Shown here: piece after piece, positions 1 through 5,641 of the stretch
How positions within the stretch are numbered: the first letter of the stretch is position 1
Layout: the number at the start of each line of letters is the position of its first letter
Assembly (NCBI GenBank): GCA_021802375.1
Contig: JAKAAL010000333.1
Location: 1-5,641 of the forward strand
Direction of reading: 5' to 3'
DNA: 5,641 bases
DNA from: Bacillota bacterium
GTDB taxonomy: Bacteria; Bacillota_E; Sulfobacillia; Sulfobacillales; Sulfobacillaceae
Program-made: the position numbers and the translations under genes
Notes under the pieces: generated by a model
What the model was told of the DNA's origin: nothing
What the model saw: only the letters and a program-made list of their open reading frames with translations
Databases searched by the model: none

Positions 1-23
1 ATTGAAAAGCTTTGTCGCGATCG

Positions 24-91
24 GCGCCGTCTACCGCGTCTCTATAAAATCCTCAGTTCCATCCGCTCTTGGTGACGGCATGGTGACGGAT
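24..91 (+). repeat. 68-bp dispersed repeat with paired TGGTGACGG boxes, copy 1
   Basis: This segment aligns without gaps to 3466-3533 in the same orientation, with 58 of 68 positions identical. Nine of the ten differences are transitions. Positions 56-78 are identical in both copies. The repeat ends in two direct TGGTGACGG boxes (70-78 and 81-89), 11 bp apart start to start. Weaker similarity continues to the window's left edge: both copies are preceded by ATTGAAA, with a 4-bp length difference. Paired direct boxes next to a tRNA fragment (seen at copy 2) resemble arm-type binding sites of tyrosine integrases; that role is inferred. No protein in any frame is convincing here. Confidence 0.75.
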
Positions 92-193
92 GGAACCGGA
101 ACCGCCTTAGTCGGATGCCGCAAAGCCAGCCAATGACTCACGTCCTTTCGTGCGCTATCTCCATCGGGTAACCCTCGCTTGAAGCAGCTGCCA

Positions 194-462
194 TCAGGGT
201 GTGTCGTCTCCATCGCGGTTCGGGTTGGAGTGGTCGGTAGGATCCGGTGCCTCCGGTTCGCTCGACAATTCCTCAAACAGGACGAGGAGATACTCATGAA
301 TCCTCTGTTGAATGGCGGATTTCACGTGACCAACTCGTGAGAGGACCAAAGTCTGGTTTCCGGTAAACAGTTTTTCCGGCCGCACATACAAATCATGCGG
401 CAACCTGTCCTCCGATTAGTCACCAAATTCGTGAACGGAAATGGCACGACGCCCAGGTCCAC
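194..462 (-). pseudogene. MazF/PemK-like toxin pseudogene, internal deletion plus frameshift
   Basis: Two reading frames each hold one half of a MazF/PemK endoribonuclease. The N-terminal half (about 400-462, GTG start possible at 460-462) reads GVVPFPFTNLVTNRR, the hallmark first strand of the family. The C-terminal half, in another frame (194 to about 400), reads LYVRPEKLFTGNQTLVLSRVG and then a helix ending in LFEEL, the usual 'R.dKLFTl...l..rlG' tail. The region that should lie between, with the second catalytic strand (Thr-Ser), is missing: roughly 55 codons are gone at the junction. It cannot encode an active toxin. No antitoxin frame precedes it; the next gene upstream is the unrelated tacT at 575. 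The N-terminal DNA closely matches the other decayed copy at 4621-4812 (GTCGTGCCRTTYCCGTTCA shared), so the two are related copies. Confidence 0.8.
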
Positions 463-574
463 CTCTAAGTGTACTAACGCCCCCGAAACTTCATGATTAG
501 CGTTGCGAAATGTTGGCGTCGGCATCGTTAATCCTGGTGCCTCCTCCCACGGCAACCCTCCATCGAACGAGGTC

Positions 575-1117
575 CTACGACGAGTGTCCTTCCGCGTCCG
601 TGTCTGAGACTGACTCCGATGGGAACAGTTGCTGGATCGTCTGTATCGGGATCCAGAATCGGTCGCGGCTTAGGCGCACAAAGCCATACCGCGTGTAAAA
701 GGCTTCTGCCGACGCCAGTGCATCGACAACGACGGCCACGGTGGCCACTTCCGAGGCGATGGCAGCCGCCCGTCGCAAGGCATCCATGAGAAGGAATTCG
801 CCGATACGTTGACCGCGGAACACGGCGTCAACCGCCAAACGCCCCAAAAGCGTCGTTCCCATATCGGGATACGCGGCCAACTTGCGTCGATGTTCTGGTG
901 GGATATCGTGCAGTTTGAGACTGAAAGATGACAGGGTGTAGTATCCCATGATGGTGTCGGGGTCCGACGGGGAAACCGCCACAAATACAGCAGCAGCCTT
1001 CCGCCGCACATCCTGCGTTGCCCGCTCTTTGAAGTACGTGCCGAGGTCGCCATCGACACACACGAACGCCGCGCGATGGTGATGGGATGCCAGAGGCTCC
1101 ACACGAATCGACGGCAT
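575..1117 (-). CDS. tacT: GNAT-family acetyltransferase toxin (TacT-like)
   Basis: A 180-residue GNAT N-acetyltransferase of the kind paired with DUF1778 antitoxins. Characterised TacT/AtaT-type toxins acetylate the amino group of aminoacyl-tRNAs and stop translation. Family marks: GYYTLSS at 58-64, LLGRLAVD at 90-97, the acetyl-CoA loop at 101-110 (RGQRIGEFLL, a variant of Q/R-x-x-G-x-G/A with Arg at the first Gly), VVVDAL at 129-134, and FYTRYGF at 140-146, whose Tyr141 matches the catalytic Tyr of TacT. Length is typical, with a slightly long acidic tail (DTDAEGHSS). The ATG follows the tacA stop directly (TAGATG) with only a weak ribosome site, so translation is probably coupled to tacA. 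It appears intact. The substrate tRNA cannot be told from sequence. Confidence 0.9.
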   Translation of the reverse strand: MPSIRVEPLASHHHRAAFVCVDGDLGTYFKERATQDVRRKAAAVFVAVSPSDPDTIMGYYTLSSFSLKLHDIPPEHRRKLAAYPDMGTTLLGRLAVDAVFRGQRIGEFLLMDALRRAAAIASEVATVAVVVDALASAEAFYTRYGFVRLSRDRFWIPIQTIQQLFPSESVSDTDAEGHSS

Positions 1118-1414
1118 CTATTGTGAAGCCTCAATCTGGGTCCAATACCGTTTAGCGGCGGCCCGCAAAGCGTCGTTGGGAGCCCCGGGTTCCATGAGCC
1201 GGTCGACAAACGCGCGACTCTCCGCGGTGCTGAGCTCCATGGATCGATAGTTCGCCACCACTTCCCGTGCTCGCCGCGTAACCGTTTGTACCACAAAAGC
1301 CGACGTGCTAATTCCCGAAGCCGCGGCCGCCTCCTCCAACAACAGTTTCTGCTCATGCGACAGGCGCACGTCCAATCGCGTCTCCTTGCGCGCCGTGGTT
1401 TCCGCTGTATTCAT
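1118..1414 (-). CDS. tacA: DUF1778 ribbon-helix-helix antitoxin (TacA-like)
   Basis: A 98-residue DUF1778 antitoxin. Residues 11-50 (ETRLDVRLSHEQK..LEEAA...GIS.SAFVVQ) form the ribbon-helix-helix DNA-binding domain. Residues 61-90 (LSTAESRAFVDRLMEPGAPN, then ALRAAAKRY) are the family's C-terminal toxin-neutralising segment. Such proteins block the GNAT active site and repress their own operon. The ATG at 1412-1414 is chosen because it gives the family's usual N-terminus, has GGGGGAG four bases upstream, and lies downstream of the promoter at 1452-1480. An in-frame ATG at 1469-1471 has a stronger AGGAGGTT seven bases upstream and would add 19 mostly basic residues, but it lies inside the promoter/operator. 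The gene abuts tacT with no gap. Confidence 0.9.
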   Translation of the reverse strand: MNTAETTARKETRLDVRLSHEQKLLLEEAAAASGISTSAFVVQTVTRRAREVVANYRSMELSTAESRAFVDRLMEPGAPNDALRAAAKRYWTQIEASQ

Positions 1415-1451
1415 CCGTCTCCCCCGCTTCCGCCTAACCTCTTTGATCTTA

Positions 1452-1480
1452 AATGTACGGTAATTGTCCATACACGTCAA
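1452..1480 (-). promoter_or_regulatory. tacAT promoter with embedded palindromic operator
   Basis: Read on the minus strand, TTGACG (1475-1480, 5/6 match to -35) and TACATT (1452-1457, 4/6 match to -10) are separated by exactly 17 bp. The spacer and part of the -10 form a palindrome: on the plus strand TGTACGG-N7-CCATACA at 1454-1474, with one mismatch. Transcription would start about 15-25 bases upstream of the GGGGGAG site of tacA. Autorepression by the RHH antitoxin, as known for TA operons, is the natural reading; the protein-DNA pairing is inferred. Confidence 0.7.
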
Positions 1481-1808
1481 CCTCCTATCAACCTCATAGT
1501 ATGGGCAATCCCTAGGAAAGTATTCTGCTGCTCAGGAGGCGGCGACCGACCTCCACCGCCATGACAACCAGGTCCAGCATCCATCAAAGGCAGTTCGAGT
1601 ATGTGGTGGGCTCAATCCCTTCCCCGTCCAAATCATCAACGTCTCGGCTCGCGCACGTCGGCCGACTTTGACCTGCCCCCAAGCCAGTCGTCTACACTTG
1701 GCCGTATGGGCCGGATCTACATGCAGAGTCCACGGGCTTTGGACCTGTTCCTGGTTTCGTGCCTAAGCCGACGCCCCCGAATCCAGAAACCGTCCTGTCA
1801 CCACCAGC
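1481..1808. other. Gap between tacA and the VOC gene, no supported gene
   Basis: No recognised gene or RNA was found. The plus strand has an ATG frame at 1560 of 37 codons (MTTRSSIHQRQFEYVVGSI...) that ends in a stop. The same frame then runs open, proline-rich (VVYTWPYGPDLHAE...), to a stop around 1812. Neither part has a nearby ribosome site or a family I recognise. It could be a decayed small gene. An AGGAGG at about 1535 is too far (about 23 bp) from the ATG to serve it. Confidence 0.4.
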
Positions 1809-2198
1809 TTAGGGTGCGACCAACTCCACCTTGATTCGGTCCGGGTCCTCAAAGTAGAGCGTATAATGGTCCGGTCCCCCGGCAAAAGGATGGCGATCCT
1901 CATAGAGAAGCCGAAGGCCGCGCGACCGAACCTGATCGGTCAACACATTGACCTGGCCTCGCGACTCAGCCCACAAGGCCACGTGGTTCAGGCCCACCCG
2001 GCCCCGGTGATATGGCACATCCGCATGCCAGTCCAGAGCCTGCACGAACACTAAGTAAGTATCATTCAATCGCCAGCTGCGTCCGGCGTCCCATTCTTGG
2101 AACGGGACATACCCGAGCTCCGTGAGAAACCATCCCCAGAATTCCGTAGAGCGTGCAAGGTTGGAGACATAAATTTCGACATGATGAAGACCTTTCAA
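1809..2198 (-). CDS. VOC-superfamily (glyoxalase/dioxygenase-like) metalloprotein
   Basis: A 129-residue protein with the two beta-alpha-beta-beta-beta halves of the vicinal oxygen chelate (VOC) superfamily. This superfamily includes glyoxalase I, fosfomycin-resistance enzymes and extradiol dioxygenases. The first half opens with KGLHHVEIYVSNL (His6 is the usual metal ligand). The second opens with GLNHVALWAES (His72) and ends YFEDPDRIKVELVAP (Glu125). These positions suit a bound divalent metal. The start is taken as the TTG at 2196-2198: AGGAGG lies at 2208-2213, nine bases upstream, and the protein then begins exactly where VOC proteins usually do. The open frame continues to 2354, but that extension is low-quality sequence. 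The substrate cannot be assigned. The gene is divergent from the DUF4037 remnant and appears intact. Confidence 0.85.
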   Translation of the reverse strand: MKGLHHVEIYVSNLARSTEFWGWFLTELGYVPFQEWDAGRSWRLNDTYLVFVQALDWHADVPYHRGRVGLNHVALWAESRGQVNVLTDQVRSRGLRLLYEDRHPFAGGPDHYTLYFEDPDRIKVELVAP

Positions 2199-2457
2199 GA
2201 AATTTGGCCTCCTATTCTCATGAATCCCTCCGGCAGAGCCGTCTCGCATGGACTGTACAGGAGAACCGGCAAGAGAGAGTACCCCAGGACCATTTGCACT
2301 CGTACAAGCCTTGCGGCGCTTTCGCCGCCGAATATCCGTCATTGCTGCCGTCAACCATTAACCCTTTTAGGTTCGGTTTTCCCGGTGACACGATCCGCTC
2401 GCACTAGCTGTGATTGGCTAATTCTAAAACTCTATGAAAAGTGAGGGAAACATAGCG
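2199..2457. other. Divergent intergenic region with a GC-rich hairpin
   Basis: This lies between the VOC gene (minus) and the DUF4037 remnant (plus) and should hold both promoters. No strong -35/-10 pair stands out. GCGGCG-CTTT-CGCCGC at 2313-2328 is a perfect 6-bp hairpin but lacks a T tract, so it is not a typical terminator. The stretch 2370-2457 is more AT-rich near the plus-strand start. Confidence 0.35.
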
Positions 2458-2894
2458 GTGCCGCCATTTGTGCCCAGATTGACACCGAACCAGCGCTACT
2501 ACGAATCCATCGTGCGCCCGATCATTGCCGACGCATTTCCGAGGCTTTTCTACGCCGCTGCTTTGATCGGATACGGATCGGATGTGCTCGGATACGACAC
2601 GGAGCGGTCCACCGACCATGAGTGGGGGCAGCGTTTACTGATATTTTTAGACGAATCCGAGTTCCACGCCGTGAGCGCCGCCCTCGATGAGCAGTTACGC
2701 AAGCATTTGCCGCCCACGTTCATGGGATACTCCACCGCCTTTAGTCCCAAGGATCACCTTGGCGTACGGGGCTAGCCAGTAAGGCCGTGGCAGGAGACGT
2801 GGCGCACCACATCGACTTCTGGACCGTGCGGCAATTTTTTGCCGCAACGCTAGGCTGGGAACCGCCCTCACCGCTGTGCCCGGCCGATTGGTGG
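2458..2894 (+). pseudogene. DUF4037 nucleotidyltransferase-like gene, frameshifted and truncated
   Basis: The first frame (2458-2775) begins PPFVPRLTPNQRYYESIVRP and contains AALIGYGSDVLGYDTE, then STDHEWG. This is the G-S-x-V-x-G-x-D core of the DUF4037 family of nucleotidyltransferase-fold proteins. A stop occurs at 2773-2775. The family continues in another frame (about 2787-2894): VAHHIDFWTVRQFFAATLGW, then PADWW, matching the segment that normally follows directly. Homology stops at PADWW, so the C-terminal half or more (helical part) is absent. The GTG at 2458 is preferred because GAGGG lies ten bases upstream and it fits the family's N-terminus; an ATG at 2434 has no ribosome site. Family members are usually well over 200 residues. 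Their function is not established here. Confidence 0.8.
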
Positions 2895-3099
2895 ATTAGA
2901 CACCCTCTTCGTGGCAGCCCCCGTATCCTGGCGCAGTGTCCTCCAACAATATGTGGGGCAACTCCGCCATCGCTATCCCGACAAGCAGGCGCTCATCGCA
3001 TACGTTTACGTTGAGTCTGGGGTACCACAATTAGCGCGCATGTATCAACGCCGGGTCACCAGTTATCGATCGTTTGGTTACCACATTGAGAAATCGTGA
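2887..3099 (+). pseudogene. Unrecognised C-terminal gene fragment joined to the DUF4037 remnant
   Basis: Starting where DUF4037 similarity ends, a different plus-strand frame is open for about 70 codons to TGA at 3097-3099. It reads LDTLFVAAPVSWRSVLQQ, then LRHRYPDKQALIAYVYVESG, VPQLARMYQRRV and SFGYHIEKS. Composition and the regular alternation of charged and hydrophobic residues look coding. There is no ribosome site or sensible start. I do not recognise the family. It may be the tail of a gene whose front was lost when the two pieces were joined near 2890. A short palindrome, CTTTCA-CC-TGAAAG, sits just behind it at 3102-3115. Confidence 0.45.
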
Positions 3100-3132
3100 G
3101 CCTTTCACCTGAAAGCGCGCCTCAAGCGGACC

Positions 3133-3146
3133 GTGTCTTCGAATCC
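3133..3146 (+). repeat. Inverted copy of the tRNA-Sec break-point sequence (att-core candidate)
   Basis: GTGTCTTCGAATCC here matches GTGTCTTCAAATCC on the minus strand at 3384-3397 in 13 of 14 positions. The second copy spans the anticodon loop of the truncated tRNA-Sec, exactly where tRNA structure stops. A pair of TGGTGACGG boxes follows 88 bp downstream. This is what a second recombination core with its arm sites could look like. The role is inferred. Confidence 0.5.
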
Positions 3147-3233
3147 TTCAGAAGAGCCCGACAAAGAATGGACGGACTACCGTCGATACTCGCCCATCTG
3201 GTGGCCATTGGATAACGAATCCAGAGATTCTCA

Positions 3234-3255
3234 TGGTGACGGCTCGTGGTGACGG
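3234..3255 (+). repeat. Paired TGGTGACGG boxes, diverged third set
   Basis: Two perfect TGGTGACGG boxes lie at 3234-3242 and 3247-3255, 13 bp apart start to start, against 11 bp in the other two sets. The bases before them (AATCC...TTC) only loosely resemble the 68-bp repeat. They are probable additional arm-type sites, in the same orientation as the other sets. Confidence 0.6.
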
Positions 3256-3330
3256 AATGCCTGTTTTTGGCACCTATGAGGGATTTCCCTCGAAAGTTCC
3301 GAAAACCGGATATCCTTGCTACGTAATGGA

Positions 3331-3393
3331 TGGCGGGGATATGTGGGAATCGAACCCACCGCCGACTTCTAAAGTCGGCCATTGGATTTGAAG
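3331..3393 (-). tRNA. selC: 3' fragment of selenocysteine tRNA (tRNA-Sec, anticodon TCA)
   Basis: Read on the minus strand, the fragment contains: anticodon loop CTTCAAA (3387-3393; anticodon TCA at 3389-3391); the 3' strand of the anticodon stem, TCCAAT; a long perfectly paired variable arm (8-bp stem GCCGACTT/AAGTCGGC with a 3-base loop, 3361-3379); a T arm GTGGG-TTCGATT-CCCAC (3343-3359); an 8-base acceptor 3' strand ATATCCCC (3335-3342); discriminator G (3334); and encoded CCA (3331-3333). The UCA anticodon, long variable arm, 8-base acceptor and G discriminator identify tRNA-Sec. The 5' half is missing: the bases before the anticodon loop (TGTGT) do not pair with TCCAA, and GGGGATAT, needed to close the acceptor, is not found upstream. 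It is therefore a non-functional 3' fragment, as left when an element integrates into a tRNA gene. Confidence 0.85.
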
Positions 3394-3465
3394 ACACAGG
3401 AGGACCCGTCATTACCATCTATGGAATAGGATGAAGTAATTGAAATACGGGGGTTTGGACGATTT

Positions 3466-3533
3466 GCGCTGTCTATCGCATCTCTGCAGAATCCCTAGTT
3501 CCATCCGCTCTTGGTGACGGGATGGTGACGGGT
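3466..3533 (+). repeat. 68-bp dispersed repeat with paired TGGTGACGG boxes, copy 2
   Basis: Partner of 24-91 (58/68 identical, ungapped). The boxes are at 3512-3520 and 3523-3531. This copy starts about 70 bp from the break point of the tRNA-Sec fragment and ends about 60 bp from the 3' end of the intact mazF, as copy 1 lies about 100 bp from the 3' end of the broken mazF. The block at 3498-3520 is identical to copy 1. Confidence 0.75.
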
Positions 3534-3593
3534 ATTGCTCTGGCTCTTCTCTGTCTCTCCCAGATACGAGGGCCACGTCCGGACCATGAAGTG

Positions 3594-3950
3594 TCATAGA
3601 TCAAACAACCGCCGCAGTCCCTCTTCAGTCTTTTGCTGCAGCGTCTCTGGTAAAGTACCTAATTTTCGACGAATGATTCGCGAGCTCAAAGTCATCAGTC
3701 GGTGGAGGCGAATGGCGGACGCGACTCGTAGGCCCGTCTGCGCGAAATCCTCGTCGCTGGGCAAAATAACAATATCGGTAGGATCCAACTCTCCGGGAAC
3801 TTGACTCGTAATAAAGGCCACAACCACATGGTCATGGCTACCCAACCGTTCTGTTAGGCAGAGGGCTGGACGGACCTTTGTCGCCGCCAGATCATCAAAC
3901 GGGAAGGGGACGAGCACGATACTATTTTTCCAGTTCAACGGGTTCTCCAT
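3594..3950 (-). CDS. mazF: MazF/PemK-family endoribonuclease toxin
   Basis: A 118-residue type II toxin of the MazF/PemK family. Known members cut single-stranded RNA at short motifs. Visible marks: IVLVPFPFDDL at 11-21, KVRPALCL at 25-32 (Arg27, the conserved basic residue), VVVAFITSQ at 42-50 (Thr48-Ser49, the conserved second-strand pair), GLRVASAIRLHRLMTL in the C-terminal part, and a final helix EEGLRRLFDL. One oddity: the near-universal Gly-Asp before 'IVLVPFPF' is replaced by Asn9-Ser10. The ATG at 3948-3950 lies inside the antitoxin gene (29-bp overlap, different frame), so translation is probably coupled; a longer open frame upstream is just the antitoxin read in another frame. Length is normal and the gene looks intact. 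RNA target is unknown. Confidence 0.9.
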   Translation of the reverse strand: MENPLNWKNSIVLVPFPFDDLAATKVRPALCLTERLGSHDHVVVAFITSQVPGELDPTDIVILPSDEDFAQTGLRVASAIRLHRLMTLSSRIIRRKLGTLPETLQQKTEEGLRRLFDL

Positions 3951-4173
3951 CGTCCATCGTGTATATATCTTCCGCCGGATTCGCGAGAAAATCAAAGATT
4001 GGATTCTTGGTTGCGGACTCCATCCACTCGGATTCCGCCATCTCATCGTCTGCACCACTAGGCAAAAAAATTACGAGTCGCACCCGTTGACCAACGGGGA
4101 CCGGGATCGTCGTTTCGATATGCCGGGCATCAATGACTCGACCGGTGGTTTCGATGGCGCGCGTCTCCTTCAT
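3922..4173 (-). CDS. Antitoxin partner of the MazF/PemK toxin
   Basis: An 83-residue antitoxin whose gene precedes and overlaps the toxin by 29 bp. The first half (ETTGRVIDARHIETTIPVPV, then QRVRLVIFLP) is a short beta-rich domain, probably for dimerisation and DNA binding. The acidic tail (ESEWMESATKNPIFDFLANP, then AEDIYTMDDGEPVELEK) matches the 'NPaFdFL.dp.EDIYt..DG.P' ending of antitoxins found with PemK/MazF or VapC-type toxins, and would wrap the toxin. The ATG at 4171-4173 has AAAGGAG (4184-4190) ten bases upstream; a GTG directly before it is an in-frame alternative. The longer open frame to 4305 lacks a ribosome site and is not like the family. It probably represses its own promoter (see 4217-4222). 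Confidence 0.85.
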   Translation of the reverse strand: MKETRAIETTGRVIDARHIETTIPVPVGQRVRLVIFLPSGADDEMAESEWMESATKNPIFDFLANPAEDIYTMDDGEPVELEK

Positions 4174-4216
4174 CACGATTCCGCTCCTTTTGAGGATCCG
4201 ACCTAGGATTACCCCA

Positions 4217-4222
4217 AGTATA
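4217..4222 (-). promoter_or_regulatory. Probable extended -10 element of the mazEF-type operon
   Basis: On the minus strand this reads TGA-TATACT: TATACT (5/6 to consensus) preceded by TG one base away, an extended -10. A start about seven bases on would leave a leader of roughly 35 bases before the antitoxin ATG, with AAAGGAG inside. No good -35 is visible at 17 bp, which an extended -10 can tolerate. Confidence 0.5.
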
Positions 4223-4620
4223 TCATCTCGGTCTGGCCTAACGCGACATTCTTCACAATCAAGTGCTGACCCTCTCGGTCGCGAACGAACCGCCCCGACC
4301 CTCACGGCCTATTCGTGCTTGCAAGCTCATCTGCCTGGATCGAGTCCCCTTCTGACTCCCGAAGGCATCTCTTGCGAGGATACCTAGACAAAACAAGGGG
4401 CTTTACGCCCTGTTTTGGTCATGTACCCAATACTCCTGTTAATTCAGGTACCCCGATTGACCTACCGCGCGACCTAACGGCAAAAGGGACTCCAACTGCC
4501 GTTATCCCGTTCTGTGCAGAACGACTACTCTGAACGGGCCTTATAGCGTGCGCATTCTAAACGTGATGGTAGGAGAGAACGATATATTGCCCAATCTTGA
4601 CGATCAGATACCCGTGCGCA
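4223..4620. other. Non-coding or decayed stretch between two TA modules
   Basis: No gene is supported. Short open stretches exist on both strands at about 4390-4530: plus DKTRGFTPCFGHVPN..., ending at TGA 4531-4533; minus GVPFAVRSRGRSIGVPEL. Each lacks a start and ribosome site and neither matches a family I know. The minus strand just downstream of 4621 may hold further debris of the decayed mazF. A perfect palindrome GTTCTG-TG-CAGAAC lies at 4509-4522, nested in a wider CCCGTTC...GAACGGG repeat (4506-4538). Confidence 0.4.
4389..4417 (-). terminator. Possible intrinsic terminator
   Basis: CAAAACA (4389-4395) pairs with TGTTTTG (4411-4417). Inside, GGG pairs with CCC, with one bulged A and a loop of about eight bases. 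The outer stem is A/T-rich on both sides, so it could act on either strand. It would end transcripts from the decayed toxin locus at 4621-5000 on the minus strand. The T run lies within the stem rather than after it, which lowers confidence. Confidence 0.4.
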
Positions 4621-4812
4621 TCAGGACCGCGCCTCCGCATCTATCGTTTTATGGGGGTCACCACAATCAGATTCGTGTTCCGCCAGAAACCTAAGTCCCA
4701 AGAGATTGCCCTTGGTATGGCTTGTCTTCACCCCATAGCCGACAATTCGTGGGTATCCGAAATTCATGAACGGGAACGGCACGACCACATCTCCCGCTAC
4801 AAACCTTTCCAT
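4621..4812 (-). pseudogene. Decayed MazF/PemK toxin, N-terminal remnant
   Basis: The frame starts MERFVAGDVVVPFPFMNFG, a clear MazF/PemK N-terminus including the Gly-Asp pair. Family similarity then stops: the Lys/Arg-x-Arg-Pro strand, the Thr-Ser strand and the C-terminal helix are not found, and the 63-residue frame ends at half the normal length. The other two frames are broken by stops. The ATG at 4810-4812 overlaps the antitoxin gene by 16 bp, with GAGG seven bases upstream, the normal TA layout. The module therefore once had a working toxin. Its DNA around the VPFPF codons is closely similar to the pseudogene at 194-462. Confidence 0.75.
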
Positions 4813-5000
4813 GCCTCATCCTCGTCTGAGGTCAGCCACGCGACCGCCAGTGTCGCTTCGGAGAGCCTGGCCGTGTCCGGCACGACATGCCGCAAGAGAA
4901 GGGATTGCACGAAGTCGGCGACCGCCTCCACCAAGTCGTCGGGGAGGTCCTGGAGGACCAACCACGGGACTTCGCAAGTCTTTGACTTTGACGATGTCAT
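4797..5000 (-). CDS. Antitoxin (DUF2281-like) of a decayed MazF module
   Basis: A 67-residue mostly helical protein. A first helix pair with LVLQDLPDDLVEAVADFVQS (15-34) is followed by a tail ending EATLAVAWLTSDEDEAWKGL. This 'LPe.l..ev.dFl.fL ... s...LakdWl.peEDeAW.dL' layout is typical of the small antitoxins that precede MazF/PemK toxins, often labelled DUF2281 or VapB-like. The exact family name is my inference. The ATG at 4998-5000 has GGGGG (5008-5012) seven bases upstream; a TTG just before it is an alternative start. It overlaps the toxin start by 16 bp. The antitoxin frame is whole although its toxin is not. A hairpin lies immediately upstream (5014-5036). Confidence 0.75.
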   Translation of the reverse strand: MTSSKSKTCEVPWLVLQDLPDDLVEAVADFVQSLLLRHVVPDTARLSEATLAVAWLTSDEDEAWKGL

Positions 5001-5013
5001 CAACGCGCCCCCT

Positions 5014-5036
5014 TGGGTTTTAGGTCTAAAAACCCA
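5014..5036 (-). promoter_or_regulatory. Hairpin/palindrome directly upstream of the antitoxin
   Basis: TGGGTTTT (5014-5021) and AAAACCCA (5029-5036) form a perfect 8-bp inverted repeat around a 7-base loop. It lies one base from the GGGGG ribosome site of the antitoxin and overlaps the stop codon of the upstream small ORF (5026-5028). It could be an antitoxin operator, or an RNA hairpin between two genes of one transcript. There is no T run after it on the minus strand, so a terminator is less likely. Confidence 0.45.
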
Positions 5037-5241
5037 CTTCCCGTCGCGGGCTCCGCACCAAGTAGAACCATTCCACGTTCAAGCGCTCACCGCCGGACGA
5101 CGCCACGCCGGGAAGGCCTCCGACCTTGACGGAAGACAGGTGTCCTGCCTTCCAAATCACGGTCTCAGGTATCGCGCCCGGGTAAACTTGGGCACGGGCT
5201 TCACGCCACAGAACAACGCGGCAGTCGACGCAAAAACTCAT
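5026..5241 (-). CDS. Small hypothetical protein, family not recognised
   Basis: A 71-residue frame beginning MSFCVDCRVVLWREARAQVY and ending WFYLVRSPRREVGF. Codon third positions are rich in G/C and the composition looks coding (PGAIPETVIW, SVKVGGLPGVAS). I do not recognise the family. A CVDC pair near the N-terminus might bind metal if more cysteines lie upstream; the frame stays open to 5445 and includes VGVCP just before the ATG. AGGAGGT at 5255-5261 is 13 bases from the ATG at 5239-5241, rather far, so the start is uncertain. An in-frame GTG overlaps the AGGAGGT site. It could also be the C-terminal remnant of a longer gene. Its stop lies in the hairpin ahead of the next antitoxin, so the two may be co-transcribed. 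Confidence 0.45.
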   Translation of the reverse strand: MSFCVDCRVVLWREARAQVYPGAIPETVIWKAGHLSSVKVGGLPGVASSGGERLNVEWFYLVRSPRREVGF

Positions 5242-5549
5242 GGGGCATACGCCCACCTCCTCGAATCTATGCTGGCACCGACTCGTGAGAAAAGTCAATC
5301 GGGGCAATCCATGCCCGTCGTGTCCTATGGGACGGGTTCTAGGATGCGGACCGAGCGTAGCTGATAACCGGCTTATACTTAACGATACGAATAATGTTAT
5401 CCGGCCCTTTAGTGCACCAGGGACTACCTGCTCCCGATCAATCATCCAATCCGGATTTGCCTACATGACGACAGCCCCGCGGCGGGCAACGCTCACTCCC
5501 AAAATTTCAACGGCCGTAGTTCGAGAGCTACCGAGAAGTCGCGGTCTTA
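5242..5549. other. Gap between the small ORF and the right-edge gene, no supported gene
   Basis: The minus strand is open in one frame to 5445 (MIDREQVVPGALKGRITLFV...), continuous with the small ORF, but the upstream half has no ribosome site and no recognisable domain. A plus-strand frame (MGHTPTSSNLCWHRLVRKVN...) is equally unsupported. 5370-5400 is AT-rich (TTATACTTAACGATACGAAT on the plus strand) and could hold a promoter in either direction. Confidence 0.35.
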
Positions 5550-5641
5550 TCAACCGAGAATGCCAATCTTGTTCACAAACTCCTTGGGAGTGAGCACGTG
5601 AATTCGCTGGTCGCGGAGGTAGGCCTGCACCTCCTCCGCAT
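5550..5641 (-). CDS. C-terminal end of a possible PIN-domain toxin (partial, runs off the right edge)
   Basis: From the right edge the minus strand reads AEEVQAYLRDQRIHVLTPKE, then FVNKIGILG and TGA at 5550-5552. The pattern 'A.e...yL....I.vlTP.EFl..' is how many PIN-family proteins (putative toxin component, COG1569 type) end. Only 29 residues are visible. The catalytic Asp residues would lie outside the window, so the family call is tentative. The TA-rich neighbourhood supports it. Confidence 0.5.
   Translation of the reverse strand, partial: AEEVQAYLRDQRIHVLTPKEFVNKIGILG

Follow-up and report, generated by a model that had tools for sequence, protein, structure and literature searches.

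A tRNA-Sec gene half as a probable junction between integrase-less cassettes in relatives of Sulfobacillus

A selenocysteine tRNA gene that is present as its 3' half only raises the question of how the half came to its place and whether it still serves as a site for mobile DNA. In the window (the whole stretch of DNA analysed, 5,641 nt) the half was read by eye at positions 3393-3331 of the minus strand. Its 63 nt begin with the CTTCAAA anticodon loop, followed by the 3' strand of the anticodon stem, the variable arm, the T arm and the acceptor strand. By eye the variable arm is a perfect 8-bp stem (GCCGACTT/AAGTCGGC) and the 3' end is made of an 8-nt acceptor strand, a G and an encoded CCA, so that the half is kept from anticodon loop to CCA just as the preliminary description of this DNA had stated. 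ARAGORN called no tRNA gene in the window, and the Rfam tRNA-Sec model gave 32.1 bits (E 0.0017, alignment over 3419-3335), below its gathering score of 47 and with non-pairs marked on the 5' side. By both measures this is not a complete tRNA, and the intact 5' half that would speak against truncation was not found upstream by either program. It is nevertheless a real tRNA-Sec 3' half and not a chance resemblance, because the intact selC genes of relatives contain the same 3' half, with one or two differences or more, and the core profile (built from 12 seeds, the window among them) matches it with an E-value of 1.4e-21. We refer to it as the recombination core (3331..3393, minus strand).

An intact selC and a selenocysteine system had been predicted from the half, and both exist among its relatives. 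When genomes were scanned for the tRNA-Sec 3'-half pattern, 16 loci matched; four carry the title Sulfobacillus and 12 the title Bacillota bacterium, a phylum other than that of the Enterobacteria, as had been supposed. Intact tRNA-Sec stands at seven of these loci and truncated copies alone at the other nine. SelA scored above the cut-off in 9/10 genomes and SelB likewise in 9/10; in G006 both were under it (G, C and L numbers are our handles for genomes, contigs and loci). The pattern CTGTGTCTTCNAANCC, searched with one mismatch, had 13 exact matches, 12 of them Sec cores; for the reversed control, several genomes scored equally many matches. The proposed integration by a tyrosine recombinase at the selC anticodon loop is well illustrated by the 3.47-Mb contig of G017. 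Here the core of the intact selC is repeated without a difference (64/64 nt) in a half at a distance of 105 kb, and the end of an integrase gene precedes that half by 116 nt. As judged from their sequence, these ends are the usual attL/attR pair of an island. Islands targeted to tRNA genes are recognised by an intact tRNA gene that shares its replicon and its orientation with a displaced fragment. Such a pair was found in G017 and G029; it lies outside what the window shows. An integrase gene inside the element, another mark of islands, is present in the G017 island and absent from the four complete units described below.

The DNA 5' of the half had been described as unrelated sequence, but it proved to be a module that recurs. 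The flank of about 183 nt (P module, 3394..3576, minus strand, ending in CCTCCTGTGT) was found by profile search also upstream of 16 other truncated cores; six of these had served as seeds for the P profile, one is the twin of the window (L040 12994), another (L106) duplicates a seed and eight are independent. The profiles for P, core (63 nt) and P' were all built from seeds in the tRNA-Sec loci. Within the P module the arm repeat CCGTCACC lies at 3513-3520 and 3524-3531 (minus strand) with 11-nt spacing. A second module, P', follows the CCA at 3216..3328 on the same strand, as seen from both profile and repeats; here CCGTCACC lies at 3235-3242 and 3248-3255 with 13-nt spacing, and a similar arm pair occurs after the tRNA ends of relatives. 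The left edge of the window (1..135, minus strand) matches the P profile again, with arm repeats at 71-78 and 82-89, and belongs to the next site of the array, whose core is beyond that edge and corresponds to L040 9551-9613 in the matching contig. The window holds six copies of TGGTGACGG, arranged as three pairs, where shuffled sequence had a mean of 0.07. It also has a direct repeat of 72 nt, whose copies are 85% identical and 3442 nt apart. The cassette cores mostly have TGTGT before CTTCAAA, and variants occur. A degraded selC duplicate that never had a role in recombination would likewise lack a 5' half and a tRNA call, but the break point, the flank and the arm modules recur at many sites and at other tRNAs, and we consider this origin extremely improbable.

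Some sites depart from this layout. A third arm pair that follows no tRNA end was seen about 90-110 nt before the P module at L097 12063-12098 and L048 6148-6177, in two genomes and in similar sequence context. At L107 (G031) 10067-10121 a tRNA-Sec 3' part begins about 8 nt inside the usual core; its P' arms are present and no P module was found.

The modules enclose the body of one cassette (cassette 2, 136..3215, minus strand; core-to-core unit of 3443 nt in the matching contig) and part of another (cassette 1, 3577..5641, minus strand; core-to-core unit of 3286 nt, bounded upstream in the matching contig by an integrase-adjacent site). Contig C44 of G008, a Bacillota MAG (the contig of locus L012), matches the window with 99.9% identity over 5640 nt, and in it three halves lie 3.3-3.4 kb apart at 18615, 15325 and 11883 with core spacings of 3286 and 3443 nt. 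The integrase gene that had been sought nearby is also there, as an open tyrosine-recombinase ORF that ends 99 nt before the first half. Read on the minus strand, the row consists of the integrase gene, 99 nt, a half of the TTGGA type, P', cassette 1, P, the window's half, P', cassette 2, P, another half and a one-arm P'. The preliminary description saw in the half a single scar marking an island boundary, and its start at the anticodon loop and the intact selC genes and integrases of relatives agree with this. Nevertheless it has a cassette and an arm module on either side, and its place as one of three halves in the row of G008:C44 contradicts such a reading, which we regard as very unlikely. 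We propose instead that the half is quite probably an attP-like junction between two cassettes of a tandem array without integrase genes of their own. The halves, the arm modules, the order of the row, the integrase adjacency and some of the cargo classes can be taken as established as far as sequence comparison goes.

Four complete units from P' to P could be read, the window's included, with core spacings of 3443, 3286, 4896 and 3138 nt. The unit of 4896 nt (G001:C43) holds an internal P remnant and an IS110 transposase, and that of 3138 nt, in G029, is a lone cassette at an intact selC, in the order selC, P', cassette, P, half. No integrase match was found inside the four units, which are all bounded by att sites at both ends; this integrase-less, att-bounded form is one mark of a CIME. 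Repeated tRNA ends that bound variable inserts, the mark of additive islands, were found in G008:C44, G001:C43 and G029. No further P or core was found past the integrase-adjacent site in about 52 kb of G017 and about 24 kb of G007, nor in about 9.5 kb after the selC-P' of G020, and the row in G008 and G004 has no linkage to selC within the assembly. Single-arm remnants lie at L112 and L040 9458. In the search for a native empty site, the DNA downstream of selC gave few matches between genomes; the related genomes G033 and G024 have the upstream and downstream flanks of selC in common and differ in their inserts. These inserts (L111 and L112, about 2.4 and 0.7 kb) lie between selC and the common downstream DNA.

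The cargo of the window includes several toxin-antitoxin genes, all on the minus strand. Cassette 2 encodes a GNAT acetyltransferase (575..1117; PF13508/PF13673/PF00583), which may be a toxin judging from its neighbour, a TacA-like antitoxin (1118..1480; PF08681, E 8e-21), and a protein of the glyoxalase/dioxygenase superfamily (1809..2354; PF00903, E 7e-7). Cassette 1 encodes a PemK/MazF-like toxin (3594..4058; PF02452, E 1.1e-12) and beside it a candidate antitoxin (3922..4305), proposed from its position and with no match in Pfam or NCBIfam. The 3' end of a PIN-domain gene (5550..5641) closes the window; the whole gene lies at L040 15213-15653, and a copy in L060, 100% identical to it, has matches to PF13470 and TIGR00305. 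Near such sites elsewhere 29 ORFs were scanned, picked as long open frames and not as all frames, many of the stretches showing one end only. By our own classing of the profile matches, 11 of the 29 are of toxin-antitoxin or defence type: TOTE primase-helicase (2), RHH (2), Mrr, HmaA/DrmD-like helicase, GmrSD-like, KwaB-like, DndB/DpdB-like, FRG and an AbiEii-type AAA protein. Eight had no Pfam match, and the other cargo comprised three IS110 transposases, a LeuA-like enzyme, a glycosyltransferase, helicases and weak matches.

Parts of the window recur in different surroundings: 3802-4234 in G001:C43 (94% identity), 1-423 in G005:C53 (97%) and 3376-3744 in G016:C114 (98%). Two pattern scans of viral contigs found nothing, and the plasmid search gave one weak match, to a PemK gene in Alicyclobacillus. 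Many ORFs of the window are short or fragmentary, and since several are fragments, part of its row may be inert. A VPFPF stretch resembling the N-terminus of PemK/MazF was noticed by eye in two short minus-strand ORFs, 322-555 and 4621-4812, which are possibly decayed extra copies; the latter has no Pfam match. The plus-strand ORFs 2434-2775 (113 aa, no Pfam match) and 2911-3099 (62 aa) may be pieces of one broken gene.

The integrase-adjacent sites form a type of their own. Seven Sec cores directly follow an ORF of the integrase family (L040 16280, L060, which repeats L040, L049, L055, L057, L099 and L061), at a distance of 88-120 nt in all of them except L061, where a partial core lies 45 nt after an integrase split over frames. 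None of the seven has a match to the P profile upstream. P' follows five of six cores (L040, L060, L049, L055, L099) and was not found after that of L057, and the 5' strand of the anticodon stem, TTGGA, is kept in L040, L049, L055 and L060 and absent from L057 and L099. Matches to PF00589 and PF14659 were found in all four integrases scanned; for PF14657, the arm-binding domain, L099 scores just above the cut-off and L057 just below it, with no match reported in the other two. Six residues that we take to be the catalytic set (R253, K291, H367, R370, H393 and Y403) are invariant in all eight aligned integrases. At L104 and L178 the integrase gene lies kilobases away from a cassette-type end, and in L195 it is internal. 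The last is an element of about 7 kb (G037:C1, 8796-15957) in which tRNA-Val and P' arms come first, then an integrase divided between two overlapping frames, and last a 3' part of tRNA-Val whose P' arms are degraded.

Integrons are built of a recombinase gene, a first site next to it and then a row of cassettes, with toxin-antitoxin genes among their cargo. The present rows share these features and have two types of site, which might suggest a true integron relative with an IntI-like recombinase, an attI beside its gene and attC cassettes. However, the five integrases compared reached 39.6-59.8 bits with TIGR02249 (cut-off 265), 28.3-40.8 with NF011946 (cut-off 435) and 77.6-93.8 with NF040815, the profile for tyrosine recombinase/integron integrase (cut-off 220). 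All five are far under the cut-offs and were rejected as integron integrases; moreover the units are multi-gene and have tRNA halves with arm repeats for their sites, and a true integron relative is very unlikely.

The arm pair is not confined to selC. The P' arm-pair pattern with at most one mismatch gave 38 matches in 21 of 101 genomes, and the reversed pattern none in the same 101. Among 35 distinct contexts, 15 follow intact tRNAs, 15 follow 3' halves and five follow neither; 30 arm pairs lie 60-89 nt past a tRNA end (CCA), a share that is not an unbiased genome rate, the loci having been gathered partly via such sites. For comparison, 12800 random positions were drawn, and 53 of them had a T-arm/CCA motif no more than 140 nt upstream. 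The intact tRNAs are Sec, Arg(TCT), Arg(CCG), Gln(TTG) and Val(GAC), the truncated ones Sec or Arg(TCT). A tRNA part also directly follows the family integrase in four of nine further loci, namely Arg(TCT) in L181, Gln in L182 and L193 and Arg(CCG) in L177, and is absent there in L178, L179, L180, L183 and L195; in L179 the integrase gene is beside an intact tRNA-Arg(TCT). When the P profile from the Sec cassettes was compared with the three cassette ends of Arg(TCT) type, all of them matched (E 2e-7 to 7e-6), chiefly in the part that carries the arms; weaker matches, with E of at least 1e-4, fall on arm repeats elsewhere too. A second tRNA island of G017 was seen at L176-L177 (C1, about 387.8-416.3 kb), a segment of about 28 kb with an intact tRNA-Arg(CCG) and P' arms at one end; at the other end stands an integrase, and after it a 3' part of Arg(CCG).

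These sites lead us to a more tentative proposal, which we hold to be possible though rather doubtful: a retargetable, integron-like cassette system on tRNA halves, in which common arm motifs would be combined with different tRNA 3' halves as cores and resident integrases would move cassettes between Sec and Arg(TCT) sites, even in hosts without selenocysteine. G006 is a candidate for such a host. This MAG has two Sec-type cores in all and no match to an intact selC, its absence being provisional. One of the cores, with its own P', is preceded at a distance of 1.4 kb by an intact tRNA-Arg(TCT) that also has P' arms (L053 in C111, 361-2183), and the ORF between them is presumably Abi-like. Such an arrangement would be the expected leftover of a Sec cassette entering an Arg row.

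For the window itself we suggest the following mechanism. A cassette would be a segment of about 3-5 kb without an integrase gene, whose site consists of P arm, tRNA-Sec 3' half and P' arm. A tyrosine recombinase (PF14659 and PF00589), its N-terminal domain presumably bound to the arm repeats, would cross over at the anticodon loop, either in selC or in a half already present, probably with a circular cassette as partner. Integration would rebuild selC with the 3' half of the cassette and displace the old half to the far side, and repeated integrations would give a row of cassettes with halves between them. We make no claim that selC genes themselves are mosaics: in a comparison of the histories of their 5' and 3' halves, on 17 distinct 96-nt selC genes (of 22 distinct ones found, five of other sequence types being dropped), four-gamete conflicts were 22/50 across the halves, 3/10 within the 5' half and 15/45 within the 3' half; the distances of the 5' and 3' halves correlated at 0.15, and 239 of 2000 shuffles were as high. 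The recombinase may act in trans, its simplest source being integrase elements such as that at the head of the window's row; on this step we are about evenly divided, and it overlaps with the explanation that follows.

The cassettes could also be remnants of autonomous selC islands that accreted in the manner of CIMEs, lost their integrase and are no longer mobilised. This is the standard account in the portion of the CIME/ICE article available to us (PMC5704250). It has its anatomy in common with the array proposed here and differs in the mobilisation step, where it is a serious rival to which we would give somewhat less than an even chance. The many short or fragmentary ORFs of the window, the single-arm remnants, the small number of complete units and the integrases kilobases from a P-core-P' end in L104 and L178 are all in its favour. 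The P module at 16 cassette cores besides the window and at 0/7 integrase-adjacent ones argues against it, as do the pieces of 94-98% identity that recur amid other material, although homologous recombination of remnants could give the same picture. The junction between cassettes of an integrase-less array remains our preferred reading, and several findings count against it as well. The integrase-adjacent sites do not have the cassettes' P module, and the integrases of L104, L178 and L195 mean that cassettes could be decayed autonomous elements. Moreover only four complete units are at hand, one of them (G001) with a P remnant and IS110, five of the 35 arm pairs have no tRNA end upstream, only four of the nine integrase loci have a tRNA half directly after the gene, and the row of G008 and G004 is not linked to selC. 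On the whole the interpretation given in the preliminary description is partly supported.

If the proposal is correct, an arm pair 60-89 nt past a tRNA end offers a sequence handle for small mobile units, which island finders that demand an integrase per element would miss. Such units place toxin-antitoxin and defence-type genes of Sulfobacillus and relatives in a compact, att-bounded form. Two ideas also become testable: that one integrase family is re-aimed at different tRNA genes by a change of core, and that hosts exchange tRNA 3' halves via such elements.

Among known systems, the selC islands of Enterobacteria, such as LEE, use selC as docking gene. The docking gene is the same here, in another phylum and with tandem integrase-less cassettes. 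Integrons are alike in the recombinase beside the first site, the cassette row and the toxin-antitoxin cargo, and unlike in that the present integrases fall outside the integron-integrase profiles and the cores are tRNA-derived with arm repeats. In the portion of the Islander article available to us (PMC4383910), the crossover is in the anticodon loop in 2083 of 3919 islands, a tandem needs an integrase and a fragment for each member, and there are four tandems of three or more. Those islands resemble ours in the regenerated tRNA gene at one end, the displaced 3' fragment at the other, the PF00589 integrase and the anticodon-loop crossover; as far as that portion goes, they differ in having an integrase in each tandem member, whereas the small members here have none. 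CIME/ICE accretion, in the sections at hand (PMC5704250), likewise involves integrase-less, att-bounded segments in tandem at a target gene; what sets the present rows apart is the common P module of the small cassettes, which differs from the integrase-adjacent sites, and an arm pair that five tRNA species have in common. In fGI-2 of Methylopumilus, according to the part of the article available (PMC10872708), recurring tRNA-Lys tails precede inserts of variable size and content; the tail there is of 20 nt, in contrast to the 63-nt half, the arm modules and, in some rows, the head integrase found here. Tandem accretion at tRNA genes is thus already known. Among the titles and abstract beginnings of the matches listed there was none on tRNA-Sec islands in Sulfobacillus, nor was a record of the present combination found among the matches listed. 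What is new is the combination of a separate type of cassette site, an arm pair common to five tRNA species and an integrase that heads some of the rows.
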